From positions 1 through 47,139 of the IMG/VR virus record IMGVR_UViG_3300048838_000271: a stretch of DNA of 47,139 nucleotides; one strand, given 5' to 3'. This DNA is from a virus. A program made the translations under genes and the position numbers. Of the stretch, positions 1,679 to 32,010 are shown piece by piece; position 1 is the first letter of the stretch, and every line of letters begins with the position of its first letter. A model generated the notes under the pieces. That model did not search any database and was not told the DNA's origin. It was given only the letters and a program-made list of their open reading frames with translations.

Positions 1679-2215
1679 TTGAGCATTTATATATGCGGAG
1701 CCTGTAACGCGGGTAAGGCGGAGATCGCGCGGCGAATTGCTGCGGAGTACCCGTCTTTGAGGCTGACAATCGACCCCGCTGATTCCGTCTTTATTCCCAT
1801 CTTTGGGGTCGGACTAGACAGGATATTCAGGGGCAGAAAATGGGAGGGGAAAACAGATGAAACGTATCAAGGAATTGTTCAGTATCTTTCTATCCTGGAG
1901 CAGGAAGACATTCTCACGAATGAAGGTCCTCTGGTCTTCCTTTCGCACTTGGTGTTCTTCGGTCTTTTAAGCTCCTTCAACGATGAACAGCGCAAGGAAA
2001 TAATTACACGTTGTCTTGACCTATTGCGAAAAGGCAAACATTTTGTGGTCAGGCGGTGGGCTGACAACGGCAACTTCGGACAGGTCAGCGTCATGCTCCA
2101 GAGGGAGTTCAGGAACGGCAGGGAGAACATATACACGATCCCGCCCGCTACAGATTATGAATCTACGGTAGAACAGGCGGTCGAATACATTAAGGGAAGG
2201 ATGGGGGTGGAATAA
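1679..2215 (+). CDS. Small P-loop NTPase-like protein
   Basis: This 178-residue protein starts at TTG, after a G-rich Shine-Dalgarno stretch (GGGGGG). It has a nucleotide-binding loop at residues 7-14 (GACNAGKA) where the usual Ser/Thr after the Lys is Ala. The overall pattern (P-loop at the N-terminus, later basic RRW segment near residues 124-126) resembles small phage nucleoside or adenylate kinase-like NTPases of the AAA/kinase superfamily. It lies between the tail-tip and fibre genes and overlaps the next start by one base, so it is co-expressed with adhesion genes. Its role is unknown: fibre maturation or a moron metabolic enzyme are both possible. Confidence 0.55.
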   Translation: MSIYICGACNAGKAEIARRIAAEYPSLRLTIDPADSVFIPIFGVGLDRIFRGRKWEGKTDETYQGIVQYLSILEQEDILTNEGPLVFLSHLVFFGLLSSFNDEQRKEIITRCLDLLRKGKHFVVRRWADNGNFGQVSVMLQREFRNGRENIYTIPPATDYESTVEQAVEYIKGRMGVE

Positions 2216-3486
2216 TGGCACTTTCGACAACGGTGAATTATAGCCTCAGAAAGCATGACGCTGGCGACCTCAACTGGGACGTTGATGTCAACTGGAACAT
2301 GGCCGAGATAGACAAGAAGCTGAAACTGCTTTTTGCCAATTTTCTGACCTGTTCGACCGAGATAGGTACGGTGGCTAAGACGGCGGCGTTTAGCAATTTT
2401 GTGTTGGAGACAGGCTGTTTGGTCGCCGTTAAGTTTGTCAACGGAAACAGCGCTAGTGCGCCAACATTGGACGTAAATAGCACGGGTGCTAAGGCGATAC
2501 AGGTCAACGGCGAAGCGGTAGCGGTAGGGGCTATTGTCCCGAATGGCATATATCTGCTTGCCTATGACGGCACAAACTGGGCGATGCTGACGCGGGAGAT
2601 GGTGTCTGACGCGATCACGGATGGGGAATTAGGAATTGCTCCATCACAGAACGCCGTTTATGATGCCCTTGCCCTCAAAGCCAACGCCTCAGATGTCGAG
2701 GATGCACTGGCAATCAAAGAATCCATAGACAACTTAACCTACAATGGCACTGACCTGACGGTCAAGTTTGCTGACGAGATAGCCGAGTACTCCGATGTAT
2801 GGGCATGGATTAAGGCACGTATAACTGCGGTAAATTACTCAGGGCTGAACATCTGCGACTACATACCGTTTACTTTAGGTGCTGAGACTATTTGGTCGCA
2901 GATTGCGGGGATAGATACGTACTATCGCACTGGTGATACAGAGATAGGGCATCATATTGATTTTATCTCTAAGGACTGCATGGCTACAACGTATCAATGG
3001 AACACGACAAATACCAATAACGGTACTGCTGACAATGCCTCTCCTTATATGGTGAGTGCACTCAAGGCAAGCCTTGATGGGCTTGTTGCTAGTTTACCTG
3101 CGGGGTTGCAGGCACAGGTAATTGAGAAAAGGGCATTTTTGGAGACGAGATATTCAAGCAGTAGTGCGTTAAGTAATTCAACGGGATGGTCATGGGTCAA
3201 TGTTGGAAAACTGTGGATTCCCACAGAACATGAACTATTCGGTAACGCAGTACAGGGTACTAAACCGTATGCTTCGGGGCAGACAGTACAATATCCCATT
3301 TTTTCATACAGCTATAAAAGCCGAATCAAGGGAGCTGGACATAATGGGTCAAGAGCTAACTGGTGGGTGTCAACAGTGGGGTCTGGTAACAGCACTACAT
3401 GCGGGGTTGTATATCAATATGGTTATCCGTATGCAAGTCTTGCCTCTGTATCCCTTAGGGTCCCGCTCTGCTTCCGAATAGGCTAA
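2215..3486 (+). CDS. Tail fibre / adhesin with DUF6273-like C-terminal domain
   Basis: This 423-residue protein is probably the receptor-binding fibre. Its N-terminal ~150 residues carry repeats typical of phage tail-fibre shafts and a region rich in Asn, Thr and Val. The C-terminal ~200 residues (from about IPFTLGAETIW, through IGHHIDFISKDCM and KLWIPTEHELFG to RVPLCFRIG) match the DUF6273-type domain, which resembles C-type lectin-like modules found in gut phage fibres and bacterial surface proteins. The 3' third is visibly more A+T-rich and repetitive in Ser/Thr/Gly than the shaft, as expected for an exchangeable receptor domain. It is followed by a small gene that may be a fibre helper. 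Confidence 0.65.
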   Translation: MALSTTVNYSLRKHDAGDLNWDVDVNWNMAEIDKKLKLLFANFLTCSTEIGTVAKTAAFSNFVLETGCLVAVKFVNGNSASAPTLDVNSTGAKAIQVNGEAVAVGAIVPNGIYLLAYDGTNWAMLTREMVSDAITDGELGIAPSQNAVYDALALKANASDVEDALAIKESIDNLTYNGTDLTVKFADEIAEYSDVWAWIKARITAVNYSGLNICDYIPFTLGAETIWSQIAGIDTYYRTGDTEIGHHIDFISKDCMATTYQWNTTNTNNGTADNASPYMVSALKASLDGLVASLPAGLQAQVIEKRAFLETRYSSSSALSNSTGWSWVNVGKLWIPTEHELFGNAVQGTKPYASGQTVQYPIFSYSYKSRIKGAGHNGSRANWWVSTVGSGNSTTCGVVYQYGYPYASLASVSLRVPLCFRIG

Positions 3487-3498
3487 GGAGGTCTAACT

Positions 3499-3684
3499 AT
3501 GGACTACGAAACCGAAATCCGCAATATGCTACAACTGCTCTCACAGACTGACTACGTTGCACTAAAGTGTGCCGAAGATGAGACAATGAAGATTAAATAC
3601 GCTGACATTTTGAAACAACGCAAGGCTTGGCGTGAAAGGATCAACGAGATGGAGGCACTCATAAATGACAATCCCACGAGATAA
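3499..3684 (+). CDS. Small hypothetical protein downstream of fibre
   Basis: This 61-residue charged, helical protein has a good Shine-Dalgarno (AAGGAGG) nine bases before its ATG. Its sequence (start MDYETEIRNMLQLL, then a run of Lys/Arg/Glu around residues 39-52) suggests a coiled-coil helper of the type often encoded directly behind phage fibres. It overlaps the next gene by 20 bases, which implies translational coupling. There is no confident family match; fibre assembly is an inference from position only. Confidence 0.6.
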   Translation: MDYETEIRNMLQLLSQTDYVALKCAEDETMKIKYADILKQRKAWRERINEMEALINDNPTR

Positions 3685-3895
3685 ACTACTACACTTTGTA
3701 GCCGGTTCGATTGCCTCTATCGTTGCATACGTTGCAACTTTTGACGTAACGATAGCGGTTTCGTTCTCCGCACTCTTGGGCATCGGCAAGGAAGTCTACG
3801 ACAGCAGAGGTCACGGCACGGTAGAAGTGCTTGATGCGGTGGCTACTGTGCTTGGTGGGGTTGTGGGGGCTATTTTAATTAAGGCGGTGATGTAA
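3665..3895 (+). CDS. YfiM/DUF2279-like membrane protein
   Basis: This 76-residue protein has two hydrophobic stretches (about residues 10-30 and 60-75) separated by the motif GIGKEVYDSRGHG. The opening RDKLLHFVAGSIA and the GKE-D pattern are typical of the YfiM/DUF2279 group, small membrane or lipoprotein-like proteins that recur near phage lysis genes. No lipobox is visible here. The stop codon overlaps the start of the next tiny gene (TAATG), so the two are translated together. A holin-like or accessory lysis role is possible but unproven. Confidence 0.6.
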   Translation: MTIPRDKLLHFVAGSIASIVAYVATFDVTIAVSFSALLGIGKEVYDSRGHGTVEVLDAVATVLGGVVGAILIKAVM

Positions 3896-3981
3896 TGGAA
3901 TGGATAATTAAATGGATTAAATGGATTAAAAGAGCGTATGAGTGGGTAAAAGAACTCATTAAGCGGGTCAAGGCAGAATGA
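3895..3981 (+). CDS. 28-residue amphipathic Trp/Lys peptide
   Basis: This short gene is coupled on both sides: its ATG overlaps the upstream stop (TAATG), and its TGA overlaps the ATG of the glucosaminidase gene (ATGA). The peptide begins MEWIIKWIKWIKRAYEW and continues with alternating hydrophobic and Lys/Arg/Glu residues. It would form a strongly amphipathic helix with four Trp and eight positive residues, and it has no long purely hydrophobic segment. The underlying DNA contains a tandem AAATGGATT repeat. Peptides of this kind bind membranes, so a lysis accessory (pore-forming, holin-modulating or lysin-release) role is plausible. No known family was recognised. Confidence 0.7.
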   Translation: MEWIIKWIKWIKRAYEWVKELIKRVKAE

Positions 3982-4574
3982 AGCGTCTATATCTCGGAGC
4001 GGTCGCTGTTGCGGTCGCTCTTTTTTTATGCTCATCTGCTTGGGCGATGGACGCTAAAACATTCTACGGTTTGGCACAAAAGCAAGCGGGCATCAACGCA
4101 TTTGCCGCAACCTGTCAGTCAGCTGTCGAAACGGGACACTGGACAAGCCCGCTGTGGAGAAATACCTACAACGGAGCTGGGCTGAAAGCACCTCCGTCAT
4201 GGAGAGCAAGCAAGCCCTATGTGGAGTTCGTCAGCCCCGAAGCCAAAGACGGCGTTTATTACAAGAAGTCATCGTACTTTCGCAAGTATGAATCGCCTAA
4301 AGCCTTTCTTGCCGATTACGCCGTGAAGATAAAGCAGGACTACCCACACTGCACACCTGATAACGTGTGGGGGTACTTTGCGGGGCTGTACAGAGGGCGT
4401 TTAGGCAAGTGGGCGACAGACCACAAATATTTTGAGAAGCTGGCGAAGAAGGCGGTTGCTTTGGAACCTGTCCTGCTCTCACAAGGGCATTTAAAGCGGT
4501 CCCTTGATTACGCGATAAGTAAAAACTACTTGGAAGACTGGCAGATAAAAATCATTGAGGCGGTGATCAAATGA
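3978..4574 (+). CDS. Secreted N-acetylglucosaminidase-type endolysin
   Basis: This 198-residue enzyme probably cleaves peptidoglycan glycan strands (GH73-like glucosaminidase). It starts with a Sec signal peptide (MKRLYLGAVAVAVALFLC) with a likely signal peptidase I site after Ala-Trp-Ala at residue 23. The catalytic Glu is probably Glu51 in SAVETGHW, followed by the YNGAGLKA segment typical of the family. Having its own signal peptide, it could reach the periplasm without a holin, unlike the amidase just downstream. Its stop overlaps the amidase start by four bases. The family call rests on motif patterns and is fairly secure. Confidence 0.8.
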   Translation: MKRLYLGAVAVAVALFLCSSAWAMDAKTFYGLAQKQAGINAFAATCQSAVETGHWTSPLWRNTYNGAGLKAPPSWRASKPYVEFVSPEAKDGVYYKKSSYFRKYESPKAFLADYAVKIKQDYPHCTPDNVWGYFAGLYRGRLGKWATDHKYFEKLAKKAVALEPVLLSQGHLKRSLDYAISKNYLEDWQIKIIEAVIK

Positions 4575-5149
4575 TAAAAATTATTCTTGACCCCGGACAT
4601 GGAGATCCCGACCCGGGCGCACGTGGGCGTATGTCGAACGAAGCCGACATTAACCTTGATGTGGCGGTCGAGCTGTCGAAGATCCTTTCAAGCATGGGGA
4701 TAGTCGCACCATTGACGCGGAGCGGTCCGAAGCGGATACATCGCGATAATCGGAACGTTGACCTCTCATCGCGCCCCGGTATGGCGAACCGCCTCAAAGC
4801 TGACGCTTTTATATCCATCCACTGCAACGGTGCTGTATCGCCCGAGGCGAACGGGTTTGAGATTTACACAACACCCGGGCAGAACAGGAGTGATAGCCTT
4901 GCCACCGCTATATTTGAGAGTTGGCAAAAAGCCTTTCCCTCACAGAGGAAGCGCACCGACTATAAAGACAACGACCCTGATAAGGAAGCCAACCTTAAAG
5001 TCTTGCGCGAAGCTCTTTGTCCCGCCGTTCTCGTTGAGCTGGGGTTTATAACCAACCCGCAAGAGGAGCGGTTTCTTATCGACAGGCACAACCAGCACGT
5101 GATGGCGTTGGCTATTGCGGCGGGGATAGAGAACTTCCTGAGAGGGTGA
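4571..5149 (+). CDS. N-acetylmuramoyl-L-alanine amidase (Amidase_3) endolysin
   Basis: This 192-residue zinc amidase cuts the bond between N-acetylmuramic acid and the stem peptide. Zinc ligands and catalytic residues are visible: His10 (DPGHG), Glu24 (NEADINLD), His84 (SIHCNG) and catalytic Glu157 (VELGFITN). There is no signal peptide or cell-wall-binding domain; the length matches a bare catalytic domain. Without a signal it should need the holin candidate downstream. Together with the secreted glucosaminidase the phage carries two cell-wall lysins of different chemistry. Confidence 0.9.
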   Translation: MIKIILDPGHGDPDPGARGRMSNEADINLDVAVELSKILSSMGIVAPLTRSGPKRIHRDNRNVDLSSRPGMANRLKADAFISIHCNGAVSPEANGFEIYTTPGQNRSDSLATAIFESWQKAFPSQRKRTDYKDNDPDKEANLKVLREALCPAVLVELGFITNPQEERFLIDRHNQHVMALAIAAGIENFLRG

Positions 5150-5409
5150 CGCGAGTGCATATCACATTGGAGAACGCGACAATTTATATCGCAATAATCA
5201 TGTTCGTGGTCGGGATCGTGCGCTGCGTCATAATTGCGCCCCTCAAGGACAGCATCACCGCTCTACAAAAGGCCATTGAGAAGTTGGAAAAGAGCCTGTT
5301 TGTCCTTGACGAGAAGATTGACGGCCAGCGCGAGCGCATCGCATGTGTTGAAGCCTCCGCTAAGTCAGCTCATAAGCGGATAGATGATCTTGTGGGGCAT
5401 GAAAAATGA
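5146..5409 (+). CDS. XhlA-like membrane/coiled-coil lysis protein
   Basis: This 87-residue protein has one membrane segment (residues 11-31) and then a long charged coiled coil (32-87, heptads of Leu/Ile/Val). GTG at 5146 overlaps the amidase stop (GTGA); a second GTG at 5155 is an alternative start. XhlA-type lysis proteins also pair a membrane helix with a coiled coil, though XhlA has its helix at the other end. It sits directly before the holin candidate, so it probably helps membrane lesion formation or anchors it. The exact family is uncertain. Confidence 0.6.
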   Translation: MTRVHITLENATIYIAIIMFVVGIVRCVIIAPLKDSITALQKAIEKLEKSLFVLDEKIDGQRERIACVEASAKSAHKRIDDLVGHEK

Positions 5410-5699
5410 GTTGGCGGGGATGGGCAAAAACACCCGCCCGGAAGCCTGTTTTTGTCTGTACATACATATTCGCCGCAGGCATGGCCATCTACCACACGTT
5501 TAAGGGGATAGACATCCCGCCGGGGATATTATCGCTGGTCAACAACATGTTGCTGGTCGTATCAGGCATGTACGGGCTGACAAGCTCATCTGAGACGATA
5601 TACGGCTCTCAATGCGGCGGGATGCTCAACGCCAACCGGGAGCCTTATTACTACGGGCAGGAGGGCAACCAGAATGAATCAGACCTCGAAGGTCATTAG
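5406..5699 (+). CDS. Putative holin
   Basis: This 97-residue protein has two predicted membrane helices (residues 14-31 and 39-58) joined by a short GIDIPPG turn, then a polar tail. Short two-helix proteins between endolysin and spanin genes are usually holins, which open the inner membrane at a timed moment and release the endolysin. Its start overlaps the upstream stop by four bases and it overlaps the spanin gene by 26 bases, which fits tight translational coupling in a lysis cassette. No sequence family was recognised, so the assignment rests on topology and position. Confidence 0.6.
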   Translation: MSWRGWAKTPARKPVFVCTYIFAAGMAIYHTFKGIDIPPGILSLVNNMLLVVSGMYGLTSSSETIYGSQCGGMLNANREPYYYGQEGNQNESDLEGH

Positions 5700-5979
5700 C
5701 GTTATTGCGCTGATTATAGTTATCGTGGCGGGGGTGTGGATATACAGAATCATATACCCGCCTGAACCGCCGCAGGTCGAGATCACGAACCAGGCACTAG
5801 AGGCGGCTAAACAGGAGAACGCAGATATGAGAAGGAGGCTTGAGGAGCTTGAGAAACGGGTCAAGGAAGAATCAAAAAAGATTAAAGTGCAAGAGCGTGA
5901 AAAGGTTGATGCTATGCCTCCTGATGCTGTTGCTGTTGCTATTGCTGACGAGTTGCGCTTATTCCTCGGAAGCGATTAA
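5674..5979 (+). CDS. Rz-like inner-membrane spanin
   Basis: This 101-residue protein has an N-terminal membrane anchor (residues 7-27), a Pro-rich hinge (PPEPPQ) and a periplasmic coiled coil (about 38-80, rich in Glu/Lys/Arg). This is the layout of the inner-membrane spanin of diderm phages. The next gene begins inside it in another frame and encodes a lipoprotein, as in lambda Rz/Rz1. The pair would fuse inner and outer membranes at the end of lysis. It is shorter than lambda Rz (153 residues). Confidence 0.7.
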   Translation: MNQTSKVISVIALIIVIVAGVWIYRIIYPPEPPQVEITNQALEAAKQENADMRRRLEELEKRVKEESKKIKVQEREKVDAMPPDAVAVAIADELRLFLGSD

Positions 5980-6325
5980 CTTTGAGTATGTCCCGCAAGG
6001 CTACGTGTCACCCTCTGACGGGTACTGGCTGGATGTCCCGACCGGGCGCAATCTGCTGCACATGATACGCACGTACCGCGAGCAGTCGGAATACTGGGAA
6101 GCGGCGCACGGCGCACTCTCGGAGGAGTTCCGGGCTTATATTGATAAAACAAATGAGAGATTGACTACGATAGAAACGAGTATCGAAGCAGAACGCAAGG
6201 CATGGAAGAATGAGATCAGGAAGGCTAAGTTGCCCGGAGTAGGTGTGTTTGCCGGGGCAGGATATGGGTCGGCTGGGCAGGTGCAGGCTGTAGTAGGTGT
6301 CGGGCTTGTTTGGCGGTTGTGGTAA
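5897..6325 (+). CDS. Rz1-like outer-membrane spanin lipoprotein
   Basis: This 142-residue protein starts at GTG 5897, inside the Rz-like gene in a different frame. It reads MKRLMLCLLM then a Leu run and a lipobox ending in LLTSC with Cys20 as the lipidation site. The longer frame opens at TTG 5840, but that would put a basic 19-residue extension before the signal. The mature part is much longer than lambda Rz1 and contains a helical charged segment around residues 70-115 and a Gly/Val-rich end. The overlap with Rz and the lipobox make the spanin assignment good. The stop ends the lysis operon. Confidence 0.7.
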   Translation: MKRLMLCLLMLLLLLLLTSCAYSSEAINFEYVPQGYVSPSDGYWLDVPTGRNLLHMIRTYREQSEYWEAAHGALSEEFRAYIDKTNERLTTIETSIEAERKAWKNEIRKAKLPGVGVFAGAGYGSAGQVQAVVGVGLVWRLW

Positions 6326-6380
6326 GGTTATAATACATAAACTGACATTGGTATATTGCGGTTTACCCGTTTCAACCTTT

Positions 6381-6404
6381 AGCCCTCTGCGCTTACAGGG
6401 GGCT
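6381..6404 (+). terminator. Hairpin after lysis operon
   Basis: A nine-base-pair stem (AGCCCTCTG with CAGGGGGCT, one G-T wobble) and a six-base loop lie about 55 bases after the lipoprotein stop. The following sequence is only modestly T-rich, so it may be a weak terminator or an RNA-stabilising hairpin. Confidence 0.5.
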
Positions 6405-10906: not shown

Positions 10907-11702
10907 CGCTATACAGATATTTAATCACCCGGAGTTCGGGGACATAAGGACCATTGCAGACGGTGATGCGGTTCTCTTCTGCGGTAAAGACATAGCTGAT
11001 GCACTCGGGTATCTGAACCCAAGTAAGGCTATATCTGATCATTGCAGGGGGGTAACGAAACGTTATGTAGGGGTCCGCACTGGTTACAGGGCCAACGGAA
11101 GCGACGCGGTACAGGTGGTGGAAATGTCCTTCTTGCCAGAGCCGGATATATACAGGCTCATTTGCAACTCAAGGCTGCCAAGCGCGGTGAAGTTTGAGAA
11201 GTGGGTCTTTGAAGAAGTCCTCCCCTCGATCCGAAAACACGGGGCCTACATGACACCGGAAATGATTGAGAAGACGTTGACCAATCCTGACTTTATCATA
11301 GGATTGTGCCAGCGTTTGAAGGAAGAACAGGCTAAAACACAGCACCTTGAATCACGGGTACAGGCTGACGCGCCAAAGGTACTATTTGCAGATGCAGTCT
11401 CAGTCAGCTCTAGTGAGATATTGGTCGGCGATCTTGCAAAGTTGCTTAAACAAAACGGCGTTGACATAGGTCAAAACAGGCTGTTTGAGAAGCTCCGCGA
11501 AGACGGTTATCTGATGAAGCAGGGAAGCGCACGGAACATGCCGACACAGCGATCAATGGACATGGGTTTGTTCCGTATCAAGGAGACGGTGATCAACAAG
11601 CCTGACGGCTCAGTTCTTATCACCCGCACACCGAGGATTACAGGCAGGGGGAGCTTGTATTTTGTCAATCGTTTTCTTGGTGAAAGAGGGGTGTGTTTCT
11701 AG
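10899..11702 (+). CDS. Phage antirepressor (BRO-N and KilAC domains)
   Basis: This 267-residue protein starts at ATG 10899, nine bases after AAAGGAG; GTG 10893 is less likely. The N-terminal ~110 residues are a BRO-N domain (FNHPEFGDIRT through CGKDIADALGY, and LPEPDIYRLICNSRLPSA). The C-terminal ~100 residues are a KilAC/ANT domain (ILVGDLAKLLKQNGVDIGQN, GYLMKQGSARNMPTQ, ending near ITGRGSLYFV). Such proteins bind DNA or repressors and favour lytic growth. Its place just after the Cro-like gene fits this role. Confidence 0.9.
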   Translation: MTSAIQIFNHPEFGDIRTIADGDAVLFCGKDIADALGYLNPSKAISDHCRGVTKRYVGVRTGYRANGSDAVQVVEMSFLPEPDIYRLICNSRLPSAVKFEKWVFEEVLPSIRKHGAYMTPEMIEKTLTNPDFIIGLCQRLKEEQAKTQHLESRVQADAPKVLFADAVSVSSSEILVGDLAKLLKQNGVDIGQNRLFEKLREDGYLMKQGSARNMPTQRSMDMGLFRIKETVINKPDGSVLITRTPRITGRGSLYFVNRFLGERGVCF

Positions 11703-12346
11703 TGAAAATGAGGGATTTAACAGGTATGCGGTTTGGCAGATTAGTGGCGATCTGCCCCTCTGGGACTACTCAATGGAAGAATATTAAGTGGCGTTGCTTG
11801 TGTGATTGTGGAAATGAAACAACAGTGGCAAGCGGAAAATTAATACGGGGGACAACACAGAGCTGTGGATGTTATAGCCATGAACTACACGTTAAGCAAC
11901 TTGAGAAGCATGGCCTTACAACTGGCGGGAAACCGCGCACTTTTATCATTTGGTGTGGAATGAAGTCAAGATGTTATTACCCAAAGTCAATAAATTATCC
12001 CGCTTATGGTGGACGTGGAATAAGAATTTGCGAAGAATGGCTAACATTTGAAAATTTCCATAGGTGGGCAATTTCAAATGGATATCAGGATAATCTAACT
12101 ATCGACCGTATCGACAATGACTCTGATTACTGCCCTGAAAATTGTCATTGGATACCATCAAAAGAGAACCGCAAAAAACAAAGACGGGCAAGATATTTTT
12201 CTATCAAGGGTGAAATAAAAAATATTACCGACTGGTGCAAACTTGTAAGGCTTTCTAAGAGTACGGCCTATAAATATCTTCACCAAAGCGAAGACAGTTT
12301 TGTCAAAGAGGTTGAAAGAAGACTAAACGGCAAGGAGGCGGCCTAA
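11702..12346 (+). CDS. HNH-type homing-endonuclease-like protein
   Basis: This protein of about 214 residues starts at GTG 11702, overlapping the upstream stop (TAGTG), with GAGGGGT upstream; ATG 11708 is also possible. It opens with the LTGMRFGRL and CDCGN-SCGC zinc-ribbon pattern, followed by a YGGRGIRICEEW, NLTIDRIDNDSDYCPENC block typical of HNH/AP2-associated phage mobile endonucleases. A C-terminal HTH-like segment follows. It is visibly more A+T-rich than its neighbours, which fits recent arrival as a mobile gene. Cleavage activity is inferred, not shown. Confidence 0.7.
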   Translation: MKMRDLTGMRFGRLVAICPSGTTQWKNIKWRCLCDCGNETTVASGKLIRGTTQSCGCYSHELHVKQLEKHGLTTGGKPRTFIIWCGMKSRCYYPKSINYPAYGGRGIRICEEWLTFENFHRWAISNGYQDNLTIDRIDNDSDYCPENCHWIPSKENRKKQRRARYFSIKGEIKNITDWCKLVRLSKSTAYKYLHQSEDSFVKEVERRLNGKEAA

Positions 12347-12347
12347 C

Positions 12348-12527
12348 ATGCAGGATGAGATCTACACGGCGGATCAGCTTGCGGTGATCTTCTCACGGTC
12401 GCCCCGCACAATTTGGAAGTGGGCGGCAACCGGGAAGATACCGAAGGGCATAAAGATTTCCCACAAGTCCCACTACTGGCGGCGCTCTGAGATAGAGCAT
12501 TTGTTTGACGACAGGAGGATAGCTTAA
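12348..12527 (+). CDS. Small MerR/excisionase-like HTH protein
   Basis: This 59-residue protein contains a winged-HTH motif of the MerR/AlpA type (YTADQLAVIFSRSPRTIWKW, then GKIPKGIKISHKSHYWRRSE). AAGGAGG lies upstream of the ATG. Proteins of this size and fold act as phage excisionases or small regulators. Its stop overlaps the start of the next gene (TAATG). Whether it serves the integrase is unknown, because it is far from it. Confidence 0.75.
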   Translation: MQDEIYTADQLAVIFSRSPRTIWKWAATGKIPKGIKISHKSHYWRRSEIEHLFDDRRIA

Positions 12528-12880
12528 TGAGCGTCTTCAAAGAGGGTTCAGTGGGTTATCTCACATCAACGAGTTCAAAGCGGCCATTCGCGGCAAACGG
12601 CAACAAGTATTCCATGGATGAGCCGCTTTACTGTTATGTCGGGCTTCAAAAGGGCGTCGGGGTAGTCCATCACATATTTAAGTCGGTCAGGGGCGGTTAT
12701 CTTGTGTCGGTCGCGAATGTTGATTTCATTATCGGCGATGTCGAGTTCACGGAAGACGGCAAGGCGACAAAGAAGCCGAAATACAGCAAGTCACAGAAGG
12801 TCAAGTCTGAATGTACTCACCGTGCGGAGCTGAGCGATCAGTTCCTTAACGTCTACAACAAGGGAGGCTGGGTGATATGA
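12527..12880 (+). CDS. Hypothetical early protein
   Basis: This 117-residue protein has no recognised family. It is basic and rich in Ser, Lys and Val, without membrane helices or Cys clusters. Both ends overlap neighbouring genes (TAATG upstream, ATGA downstream), which supports real translation as part of the early operon. Confidence 0.7.
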   Translation: MSVFKEGSVGYLTSTSSKRPFAANGNKYSMDEPLYCYVGLQKGVGVVHHIFKSVRGGYLVSVANVDFIIGDVEFTEDGKATKKPKYSKSQKVKSECTHRAELSDQFLNVYNKGGWVI

Positions 12881-13020
12881 CGCACGATACAAAACTGATC
12901 CTTGCGGGGGTACTGATAGGCTGGTCGGCGTGGTTCTTCATAGTCGTCCTGATCTCCAGCGCCTTCACAAAGCCCAAATGGCTGTATGACGGGGATAAGG
13001 TCAAGGGTATTAAGAAATGA
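12877..13020 (+). CDS. Small membrane protein
   Basis: This 47-residue protein has one membrane helix (about residues 7-30) and a basic C-terminal tail (KVKGIKK). It overlaps both neighbours by four bases (ATGA). Next to the membrane-anchored transglycosylase it could be a partner of that enzyme, but nothing in the sequence shows this. Confidence 0.65.
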   Translation: MTHDTKLILAGVLIGWSAWFFIVVLISSAFTKPKWLYDGDKVKGIKK

Positions 13021-13664
13021 AGCCGCCCTGGATACGCAGGTACACGGCACGTCAAATCATAGTCTGTGTTCTTGCATTTTACGCCGCCTTACTTGCCTTT
13101 TTGCTTGGGATATTCGCCGCCCACCTTGCTTATACGCCCGCACAGCTGCCCGAAACGACACAGACGATTGAACACGCACGTCCGGTTGATTACACCGCGA
13201 TCCACTGGATCAGGAAGTATAACCCTGCACTCTCTGAGGCTGAGGCCCGCGAGATGTACAGCTACGTTGAGCAGACGATTGCGCGGTATAAAGCTGACCC
13301 GGCATATCAGAAGGGCGCGGCATTACAGGTAACGCCGAAGCTCTTTCTTGCTCTTATTCTCAGGGAGTCGGGGGCTAAGTGGCAGTCTATCTCAGACCAC
13401 GGGGCAATCGGGCTGTGTCAGGTAATGCCGCTCCACGTTGAGGATCTTCACGCAGCCGGGGTTATCGAATCGCCGGAGGTTGAAGAGCTACTGGACGCAG
13501 AGAGCAATATCAAGGCAGGTATTCACATTTTGATGAACTATGCGCGGAGGGTTGAGACGCTGACACGCGCCCTAAGTGTTTACAACGGCGGGTTCGGTAG
13601 AGAGAAAGCCGGGCGCAATTACGCAAGGCGAGTTATGGAGCTATACAGACAGATAGGAGGTTAA
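13017..13664 (+). CDS. Membrane-anchored lytic transglycosylase (SLT)
   Basis: This 215-residue enzyme has an N-terminal membrane helix (residues 13-37) that leaves the catalytic domain outside the cytoplasm. The SLT fold is shown by catalytic Glu117 in LILRESGAKW, GAIGLCQVMP at 129-138 and ALSVYNGG near residues 185-192. It cleaves glycan strands to 1,6-anhydro products. It lies in the early region far from the tail and lysis genes, so it is not an ordinary tail or endolysin enzyme. A role in DNA entry, wall remodelling or exclusion is possible. Confidence 0.85.
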   Translation: MKPPWIRRYTARQIIVCVLAFYAALLAFLLGIFAAHLAYTPAQLPETTQTIEHARPVDYTAIHWIRKYNPALSEAEAREMYSYVEQTIARYKADPAYQKGAALQVTPKLFLALILRESGAKWQSISDHGAIGLCQVMPLHVEDLHAAGVIESPEVEELLDAESNIKAGIHILMNYARRVETLTRALSVYNGGFGREKAGRNYARRVMELYRQIGG

Positions 13665-28911: not shown

Positions 28912-29385
28912 ATGGCAAGAGAGCTGACCACTAAGCAGAAAGTATTTGTTAAGGAGTACATAGTTGACTTTAACGCCGCCGCAGCCGCCCGGAGAGCGGG
29001 ATATTCAGTCAAACACGCGGATAATATTGGAAATCAATTGATGGGTAAAACTGGAGTATCAAAAGCCATAGAAAATGAACTAAAGAAACGAAACTGGCGA
29101 ACGGAAATAACCGCTGAGGAGATCATAAAAGATCTGATTGAGGTCAAAAGTGTTTGTATGCAGAAGATATATGTCAGGGATGCTGATGGCAATATAGTCA
29201 AGGACATTGACGGCAACCCGGTAACCGCTTTCGTGAACACAAAAGAGGGGAACAAGGCCCTTGAACTGCTCGGCAAACACAAGGCTCTGTTCAGCGATAA
29301 CAAGCTCGATGTCTCCGGCGGACTGAAAATCACAGTCGCATACGAAGACAGCGCGGAAAATGACAATGACGGAGACGACAGCTAG
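28912..29385 (+). CDS. terS: Terminase small subunit
   Basis: This 157-residue protein matches the Terminase_2 group, with the HTH-like opening ELTTKQKVFVKEYI and FNAAAAARRAGYSV. It recognises phage DNA for packaging. The start at 28912 has AAAGGAGG upstream; the frame opens earlier, but that extension would run through the terminator. It overlaps the large subunit by 26 bases and heads the late operon, as in many siphophages. Confidence 0.9.
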   Translation: MARELTTKQKVFVKEYIVDFNAAAAARRAGYSVKHADNIGNQLMGKTGVSKAIENELKKRNWRTEITAEEIIKDLIEVKSVCMQKIYVRDADGNIVKDIDGNPVTAFVNTKEGNKALELLGKHKALFSDNKLDVSGGLKITVAYEDSAENDNDGDDS

Positions 29386-30634
29386 ATTCAACTCAATATT
29401 CCGTTCAGCCAACAACAGCAAGAAGCGCTACAGGGTACTTAAGGGTTCAGCCGGTTCAGGTAAGTCGGTAAACATAGCACAGGACTATATAATCAAGCTC
29501 ATGGACCCGAAGAACAAAGGCGCAAACCTTCTCGTTGTCAGAAAGGTAGAGGAATCCAACAAGGATTCAACCTATGCCGAACTCTACGGCGCAATCAGCC
29601 GCATATGCGGTGATCAGGCAGAAAAGATATGGAGCAGTACGGTCAATCCGTTACAGCTCACATGCAACGTCACAGGGGCGCGGATCATCTTCAGGGGAAT
29701 GAACGATTCAAAGCAGCGGGAAAAGGTCAAGTCAATCAACTTCCCGGTCGGCAAACTTACGTGGATATGGATCGAAGAGGCGACAGAGCTTGAAGAGGCC
29801 GATGTTGACATACTGGACGACCGCTTAAGGGGAACCCTGGATAATCCCAACTTATACTACCAAATCACTTTCACATTCAACCCGGTATCATCTTCACACT
29901 GGATCAAGCGCAAATACTTTGATGTCCAGTCAGACGATACATTCACACATCATTCAACCTACAGAGATAATAAATTCATAGACGAAGCATTTTACAGGCG
30001 CATGGAACGGCGCAAGAGGGAAGACCCGGACGGCTACGAGGTTTACGGACTGGGGAACTGGGGAACAACAGGCGGGCAGATCCTCAGCAACTACAGAATA
30101 GAGAGCTTTGACTGCCACGATGAGCGTTTTGATACCCGCGTCTACTCTCAGGACTTCGGTTACAACCACGCCAACGCGATACTTGATGTCAGGTTCAAGG
30201 ACGGCGAGATGTACGTTCTTGATGAGATATACGTGTTTGAGAAGGACACAACGGAGATCATAGACCTTGCAGACAGGCGCGGATTCAACAAGCGTGTGCG
30301 CATGTGGTGCGACAGCGCGGAGCCGGACAGGATAAAGATGTGGAAACGTGCCGGGTATTACGCGGAAGGGGTAAAGAAAGAGCAGGGATCAGTACACGCC
30401 CAGATCGATTACCTCAAGGGCATGAAGATACATATTCACCCGCGCTGCACGAATACCATTAAGGAAATACAGGCTTGGAAGTGGAAGAAGGACCGCCAGT
30501 CAGGGTTATATCTCGATGAGCCGATAGAGTTTATGGATGATGCAATGGCGGCACTTCGGTATTCCATCGAGGACATGAGGATCAGGCGCAGTGGGGCCAA
30601 AGTCTTATCATTCACGGGAGGAGCAATCAGATGA
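29360..30634 (+). CDS. terL: Terminase large subunit (PBSX-type)
   Basis: This 424-residue packaging motor has Walker A GSAGSGKS at residues 29-36, Walker B WIWIEEATE and the nuclease acidic residues in YSQDFGYNHANAI and CDSAEPDRI, ending with DDAMAALRY. These features match the Terminase_3/PBSX family. ATP hydrolysis drives DNA into the prohead and the nuclease domain cuts the concatemer. It overlaps terS, suggesting translational coupling. Confidence 0.95.
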   Translation: MTMTETTARFNSIFRSANNSKKRYRVLKGSAGSGKSVNIAQDYIIKLMDPKNKGANLLVVRKVEESNKDSTYAELYGAISRICGDQAEKIWSSTVNPLQLTCNVTGARIIFRGMNDSKQREKVKSINFPVGKLTWIWIEEATELEEADVDILDDRLRGTLDNPNLYYQITFTFNPVSSSHWIKRKYFDVQSDDTFTHHSTYRDNKFIDEAFYRRMERRKREDPDGYEVYGLGNWGTTGGQILSNYRIESFDCHDERFDTRVYSQDFGYNHANAILDVRFKDGEMYVLDEIYVFEKDTTEIIDLADRRGFNKRVRMWCDSAEPDRIKMWKRAGYYAEGVKKEQGSVHAQIDYLKGMKIHIHPRCTNTIKEIQAWKWKKDRQSGLYLDEPIEFMDDAMAALRYSIEDMRIRRSGAKVLSFTGGAIR

Positions 30635-32010
30635 TCAATAACGAAAATAATAGCGTAGCTGTATTAGGCTATGCCCATAAAGAAATGAGCCGTCACTGGA
30701 ACATGACAAGAACACTCCTTGGCGGCACGTATGCCATCAGGGAAGCGGGGGAGGCGTACCTTCCTAAGTACCCGGCAGAGCAGGGTGAGGATTACAGAAT
30801 AAGGCTAAGCAGGGCAGTTTTAACTAACTACTACGCCATGACCATCAAGCACCTTGTGGGGAAAGCCTTCTCAAAGCCACTGACGCTTGTAGATGATGTC
30901 CCGGAGCAGATAGTTAAGTGGTGTGAAGACGTAGACCTACAGGGAACGCACATCAATGACTTTGCGGCTGAGCTATTCCGCGAGGCTCTCGGTATGGGCT
31001 TTGCTTCAATCTTCGTTGACCATCCGAAGGCACAGCCTGGAGCAACTCTTGCAGATGAACAGGCAATGGGCGCACGGCCCTACATGGCAATGATACGGCC
31101 CGAAAGCCTTCTGGGTGTACGGACATCAGGTAGGGCTAATCAGATACAGCTTGCGAGAATACTTGAGCAGGCTGTTGAGCCTGACGGTCTGTACGGCGAG
31201 GTTGTGGCGACAAGGGTCAGAGTGCTTTATCCGGGCGGCTATCAGCTATTTGAACTCAAGGACGATAAGGAATATATATTGGTGGACGAGGGCATAATGA
31301 ACCCGCTTCAAAGGGTCCCGCTTGTCCCTGTCTACGGACAGAAAGAGGGAAGCTGGATAGGTAAGCCGCCGCTCCTTGACCTTGCTTACAAGAACATACA
31401 GCACTATCAGACGGACAGCGACCACGACAACGCGCTTCATGTCGCATCATTCCCGATCCTTGCAGTTTCAGGATGGGAAGAGGACAGAGACCCTGCTATA
31501 ACAATAGGCCCTAATCGTGTACTTGCGACAGGCGACCCACAGGGCAAATACTACTATGTCGAGCACAGTGGAGCATCGCTAGGCGCGGGTCGGCAGAGGC
31601 TTGAAGACCTCAAAGCAGATATGGCCACAATGGGGATACAGATGCTCATGCCGTCAGCATCAGGCGGCGCGGCAACTACTGCAACTGAAACACAGGTCAA
31701 ATATGCAGAGGCCACGAGTGACCTACAGCGGATGGCGTTTGGACTTAAAGACGCGCTTGAAAACGCCCTCATGCTCATGGGCGAGTGGGTCGGGCTTCCT
31801 GACGGCGGTTCTATTGAGCTTAAAGGTCAGTTCACCATGCCGAGAGACGCGGCTACAGAGGCACAGGCGCTTATATCTTTGCGCAATTCAGGAGAGATCA
31901 CATCACACACGCTCTTGTCAGAACTCAAGCGGCGCGACTTTCTGCCAGACGATTTTGACGTAGCGGAGGAAATAGAGGCGGTCGCGGCTGAGGGACATGG
32001 CGGTGAATAG
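30631..32010 (+). CDS. Portal protein (DUF4055)
   Basis: This 459-residue protein is the DUF4055-type portal, the ring through which DNA enters and leaves the head. Recognisable features are the opening SRHWNMTRTLLGGTYAIREA, LKDALENALMLMGEWVGLP and a helical C-terminus. It overlaps the terminase gene by four bases (ATGA), which is the usual order terS-terL-portal. Confidence 0.88.
   Translation: MINNENNSVAVLGYAHKEMSRHWNMTRTLLGGTYAIREAGEAYLPKYPAEQGEDYRIRLSRAVLTNYYAMTIKHLVGKAFSKPLTLVDDVPEQIVKWCEDVDLQGTHINDFAAELFREALGMGFASIFVDHPKAQPGATLADEQAMGARPYMAMIRPESLLGVRTSGRANQIQLARILEQAVEPDGLYGEVVATRVRVLYPGGYQLFELKDDKEYILVDEGIMNPLQRVPLVPVYGQKEGSWIGKPPLLDLAYKNIQHYQTDSDHDNALHVASFPILAVSGWEEDRDPAITIGPNRVLATGDPQGKYYYVEHSGASLGAGRQRLEDLKADMATMGIQMLMPSASGGAATTATETQVKYAEATSDLQRMAFGLKDALENALMLMGEWVGLPDGGSIELKGQFTMPRDAATEAQALISLRNSGEITSHTLLSELKRRDFLPDDFDVAEEIEAVAAEGHGGE

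Follow-up and report, generated by a model that had tools for sequence, protein, structure and literature searches.

Does a 28-codon reading frame squeezed between two lysis genes of a temperate phage encode a functional peptide, and what might such a peptide contribute to lysis? The question is raised by positions 3895..3981 (+) of the window, that is, the whole stretch of DNA analyzed here, which is 47,139 bp long and constitutes an entire virus record. The phage is temperate and tailed; it encodes a lambda-J-like tail protein (146-1666), an integrase (6823), a terminase (29360) and a portal (30631). The phage is mosaic at 29360-32010; its terminase is nearest to those of Bacillota prophages, and the nearest named phages for its portal are the proteobacterial Bordetella and Pseudomonas phages. 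The original prediction placed a cationic, Trp-containing peptide gene in tight overlap with the genes of a YfiM-like protein and a secreted glucosaminidase, and these descriptive points all held. The coordinates, frame, length of 28 codons and sequence (MEWIIKWIKWIKRAYEWVKELIKRVKAE) were exact; the ATG shares one base with the stop codon of the upstream YfiM-like gene (ATGTAATGG; TAATG), and the peptide's stop overlaps the glucosaminidase start by four bases (GAATGA; ATGA). The peptide contains four Trp residues and carries a net charge of +4.

The surrounding genes look like a full lysis operon from a phage whose host is diderm, a host type proposed from the predicted spanins. The upstream gene (3665..3895, +) encodes a 76-aa small membrane protein, a holin candidate that was classed as YfiM-like from its alignment, its hydrophobic segments and a match to NCBIfam NF008028 (E 2.9e-6) that falls under that family's own cut-off; in the alignment, its DK..H and GIGKEVYD signature is kept in 16 viral relatives. 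The downstream glucosaminidase (3978..4574, +; 198 aa) is an endolysin that matches PF01832 above the cut-off (2.7e-12) and, by hydropathy, has a signal-peptide-like N-terminus. A second endolysin follows, an N-acetylmuramoyl-L-alanine amidase of the Amidase_3 type without a signal peptide (4571..5149, +; PF01520, 3.3e-44). The next gene (5146..5409, +) encodes a protein with a single transmembrane segment, seen in its hydropathy, and a coiled coil; this layout, just after the endolysins, resembles that of the Mu releasin, and the protein has no convincing family match, the best being phrog_1863 (2.6e-6), a family without an assigned function. The same operon encodes a weakly hydrophobic 97-aa protein (5406..5699, +) with no family match in Pfam or PHROGs. 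A predicted i-spanin (5674..5979, +) was recognized by its layout, with an N-terminal transmembrane segment and a coiled coil, and by weak matches to Rz-like PHROGs (0.008-0.015). The overlapping gene is predicted to encode an o-spanin lipoprotein with the lipobox LTSC (5909..6325, +); its match to the Rz-like phrog_456 (6.7e-6) was obtained with the frame 5840-6325, and the start at 5909 is the likely one. The C-terminal half of the 5840-6325 product matches DUF6808 (PF20647), as does, weakly, its counterpart in the related phage L171.

The arrangement of the operon argues for a translated frame at 3895-3981. With this frame included, all junctions from 2215 to 5979 measure -26 to +12 nt; if it is omitted, an 82-nt hole appears, the sole one in the lysis operon. 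RNA structure was considered as a cause of this gap and rejected, since none was found beyond chance (z +0.66). A Shine-Dalgarno-like site, AAGGCGGTGA, lies at 3880..3889 (+) within TAAGGCGGTGA, in the last codons of the YfiM-like gene. Its duplex with the anti-Shine-Dalgarno sequence is worth -8.9 kcal/mol, similar to that of the amidase gene (-9.0) and within the top 5.9% among the window's 868 ATGs. That the frame opened by chance in an untranslated gap is very improbable, given the combination of ribosome-binding site, packing and amphipathicity. This explanation would nevertheless account for the lack of a homologue and for a base composition (GC 36%, GC3 41%) unlike that of the neighbours (43-54% and 49-67%). 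When the gap was filled with random 82-nt sequence, an ATG frame of at least 20 codons overlapped both neighbours in 2.7% of draws and simply lay close to the upstream stop in 7.3%.

The peptide itself is exceptional among short frames. With an Eisenberg hydrophobic moment (100 degrees) of 0.56, it ranks first among the 455 window frames of 20-45 aa, and only 0.3% of composition-preserving shuffles matched this value (p=0.003). In 551 kb of fetched loci, it was reached by 5 of 3,385 frames of the same length range, one of which was the peptide itself. In the helix, all four Trp lie along a single edge of the apolar face, with the basic residues, Lys and Arg, round the other side. Taken together, the packing without an 82-nt hole, a Shine-Dalgarno site as strong as that of a neighbour and the top-ranking hydrophobic moment indicate that 3895-3981 is probably a real gene. 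Part of its regularity has a simple origin, for the WIKWIK pattern is due in part to a perfect 9-bp tandem repeat, ATTAAATGG, which spans 3907..3930 (+) in 2.7 copies, lies in frame and encodes WIK units. Thus, some of the regularity probably arose via in-frame slippage, which is still compatible with selection for the outcome.

Translation could also matter without the product, and a coupling spacer of this kind is the main rival to a functional peptide. The frame would then serve only to take ribosomes over the gap and to determine how much endolysin is made, while the peptide would do little and its sequence would be free to vary. The overlaps of one and four bases at the two ends fit this explanation, as do the weaker Shine-Dalgarno site of the glucosaminidase gene (-5.7 kcal/mol), the slippage repeat and the lack of sequence conservation relative to the peptide of L171 described below. 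However, a sequence free to vary would rarely come out as the most amphipathic of 455 frames, and neighbours that overlapped directly would couple equally well. We consider this explanation unlikely, though worth serious attention.

The best 19-residue mean hydropathy of the peptide is only 0.06, so it contains no transmembrane segment; lacking a stretch hydrophobic enough to span the membrane, it is not a standard holin or pinholin. It resembles pinholins and small holins in being a tiny lysis-operon protein encoded beside an endolysin whose N-terminus carries an export segment, but differs in lacking a transmembrane helix. No curated holin family in Pfam, PHROGs or NCBIfam matched it, which is weak evidence at such a short length. 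We tentatively favor, at somewhat less than an even chance, the reading that 3895-3981 is a genuine gene of the late lysis operon whose product is a cytoplasmic, membrane-surface-active lysis accessory that acts first on the inner membrane. Under this proposal, the peptide would be translated from its own Shine-Dalgarno site, with additional coupling to its neighbours. Since it has neither a signal peptide nor a transmembrane segment, synthesis would take place in the cytoplasm, and the peptide would form one amphipathic helix on meeting a membrane, with Ile, Val and Leu facing inward, Trp on one border and Lys and Arg facing outward. Late in infection, it may accumulate at the inner membrane, on the cytoplasmic side, and weaken or depolarize that membrane. 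In this way it would assist a membrane protein, the YfiM-like one or another, in triggering lysis and so open the peptidoglycan to attack by the glucosaminidase, which is exported, and by the amidase, which lacks a signal.

Searches were performed to find the peptide elsewhere, and no homologue was detected in phages, viral contigs, Pfam, PHROGs or NCBIfam. A tblastn search against phages at E 10 gave no useful match, and the low-complexity filter may mask matches in such a search; a degenerate MEWxxKWxKW DNA pattern was not found in viral contigs. Against the PDB, only designed helical proteins were retrieved, with weak E-values. No Trp/Lys peptide was present in the 32 YfiM-like neighbourhoods inspected. 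Searches with the glucosaminidase gave nothing useful in viral contigs, phages and plasmids, and only two weak, unrelated glucosaminidases in 50 genome or virus records. A search of 200 genomes sampled from one phylum, run without a positive control, also gave nothing useful. Further scans reached only two relatives, L171 and L177. L171 is a close relative found via its J-like tail protein (80% identity), and L177 was found via a tail-fibre N-terminus.

Both relatives carry tiny putative frames ahead of an endolysin. In L171, where no YfiM-like gene was detectable, a 27-aa hydrophobic frame with a strong Shine-Dalgarno site (11723-11806) precedes the endolysin, together with a 28-aa frame, MNKMLAKIAEAITSLLAKANEVFFGGEF (11799-11885), that is mildly amphipathic (moment 0.34, p=0.02) with a net charge of 0. 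The latter is not alignable with the window peptide, as 35% of shuffles score equally well. In L177, a 28-aa hydrophobic frame ending in WRR (6315-6401) lies between the tail fibre and an endolysin frame that, read by eye, encodes an M15-type peptidase. Thus, three phages have tiny putative genes in this slot, and the chemistry of the products varies; the slot recurs, the sequence does not. L171, the one close relative in which the slot could be read, has an unrelated and uncharged 28-aa peptide there, and L177 a hydrophobic one. The hydrophobic single-helix frames at 11723-11806 and 6315-6401 are possibly minimal holins, and they fit the pinholin comparison better than the window peptide does.

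The L171 locus has further peculiarities. Its glucosaminidase and amidase are fused in one 387-aa protein (11901-13064), whereas the window has two overlapping genes. The L171 glucosaminidase frames at 11442-11648 and 11901-12470 start at the equivalent of window residue 24 (MD), so that the signal-peptide-like extension occurs in the window and not in L171; judged from these N-termini, the mode of export seems to differ between close phages. The frame at 11442-11648 is a truncated glucosaminidase remnant, 66% identical to that of the window over the aligned part, and by eye its tail is similar to the C-terminal end of the protein encoded at 3499-3684 in the window. Next to the intact fused endolysin, this remnant has the appearance of a scar left by recombination. 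The L171 record also extends into host sequence, with a tRNA-Val and, as read by eye, a gene resembling that of diaminopimelate epimerase.

Disruptins, which are short amphipathic phage lysis peptides resembling antimicrobial peptides, are already known (PMC12819732). The proposal of a lysis accessory stands with regard to its tightly coupled, real-looking gene, its cationic amphipathic helix and its difference from holins and pinholins; the claim of a new type is not supported. Like a disruptin, the window peptide is short, is encoded within the lysis region and has the pattern of a cationic amphipathic helix. As with phiKT gp28, its gene overlaps an endolysin gene and adjoins a membrane protein gene. 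The fetched gp28 gene, flanked by endolysin and holin genes, encodes 56 aa with a charge of +7 and a best 28-residue moment of 0.56. Conceivably, once the inner membrane is open, the window peptide reaches the outer membrane and disrupts it, backing up the spanins or acting together with them. We regard this role as distinctly unlikely. The peptide is half as long as gp28 and less charged, and the weak alignment between them (Smith-Waterman score 28) is reached by 3.5% of shuffles. Moreover, disruptins were found by examining phages without identifiable spanins (PMC12819732), whereas a predicted i-spanin (5674-5979) and o-spanin (about 5909-6325) already fill this job here; with these and two peptidoglycan hydrolases present, an outer-membrane role is not required. 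The peptide is best regarded as analogous to a disruptin, and not as an established one. A cationic amphipathic helix supplied with an endolysin is also found in the P87 region of Pae87, an antimicrobial-peptide-like endolysin tail (PMC8972805); here, in contrast, it is encoded by a separate gene and is not part of the enzyme.

The location of the gene between those of the YfiM-like protein and the glucosaminidase also suits a regulatory partner. As a coiled-coil helix, soluble or peripheral, the peptide could set the timing of lysis by binding either the YfiM-like protein or the glucosaminidase signal segment, in the manner of an antiholin or releasin; the 3-4 spacing of its apolar residues would suit a coiled coil. 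The releasin of phage Mu offers a precedent for small accessories in cassettes with an endolysin that carries a membrane or signal segment at its N-terminus (PMC9239132). However, Mu gp25 is a 99-aa transmembrane protein with an anionic cytoplasmic domain (PMC9239132), a layout closer to that of the window's 5146-5409 protein than to the peptide. Its high net positive charge and Trp border are features more often associated with membrane surfaces, and the peptide has no family match in Pfam, PHROGs or NCBIfam; a regulatory role is, in our estimation, improbable.

The inner-membrane accessory remains the reading we favor because of the operon packing, the Shine-Dalgarno site, the hydrophobic moment with its Trp border and basic face, the presence of two peptidoglycan hydrolases and spanin-like genes in the same operon, and the 27-28-aa frames before the endolysin in L171 and L177. 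It is weakened by the lack of a homologue, the unalignable and uncharged peptide of L171, the divergent base composition, the slippage behind the WIK units, and a residue pattern that a soluble coiled coil would fit as well. More speculatively, and with little expectation that it will hold, this phage lineage may have a fast-changing slot before the endolysin in which 27-28-residue micro-proteins of interchangeable membrane chemistry (cationic interfacial, neutral amphipathic or single hydrophobic helix) form a class of minimal, sequence-independent inner-membrane lysis triggers working alongside spanins.

If real, the peptide would be a 28-residue example, from a spanin-bearing phage, of amphipathic phage lysis peptides, few of which are known, and its membrane activity would be directly testable. 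It would also suggest that a recurring micro-protein slot in lysis operons escapes gene callers, which often pass over frames of fewer than 30 codons.
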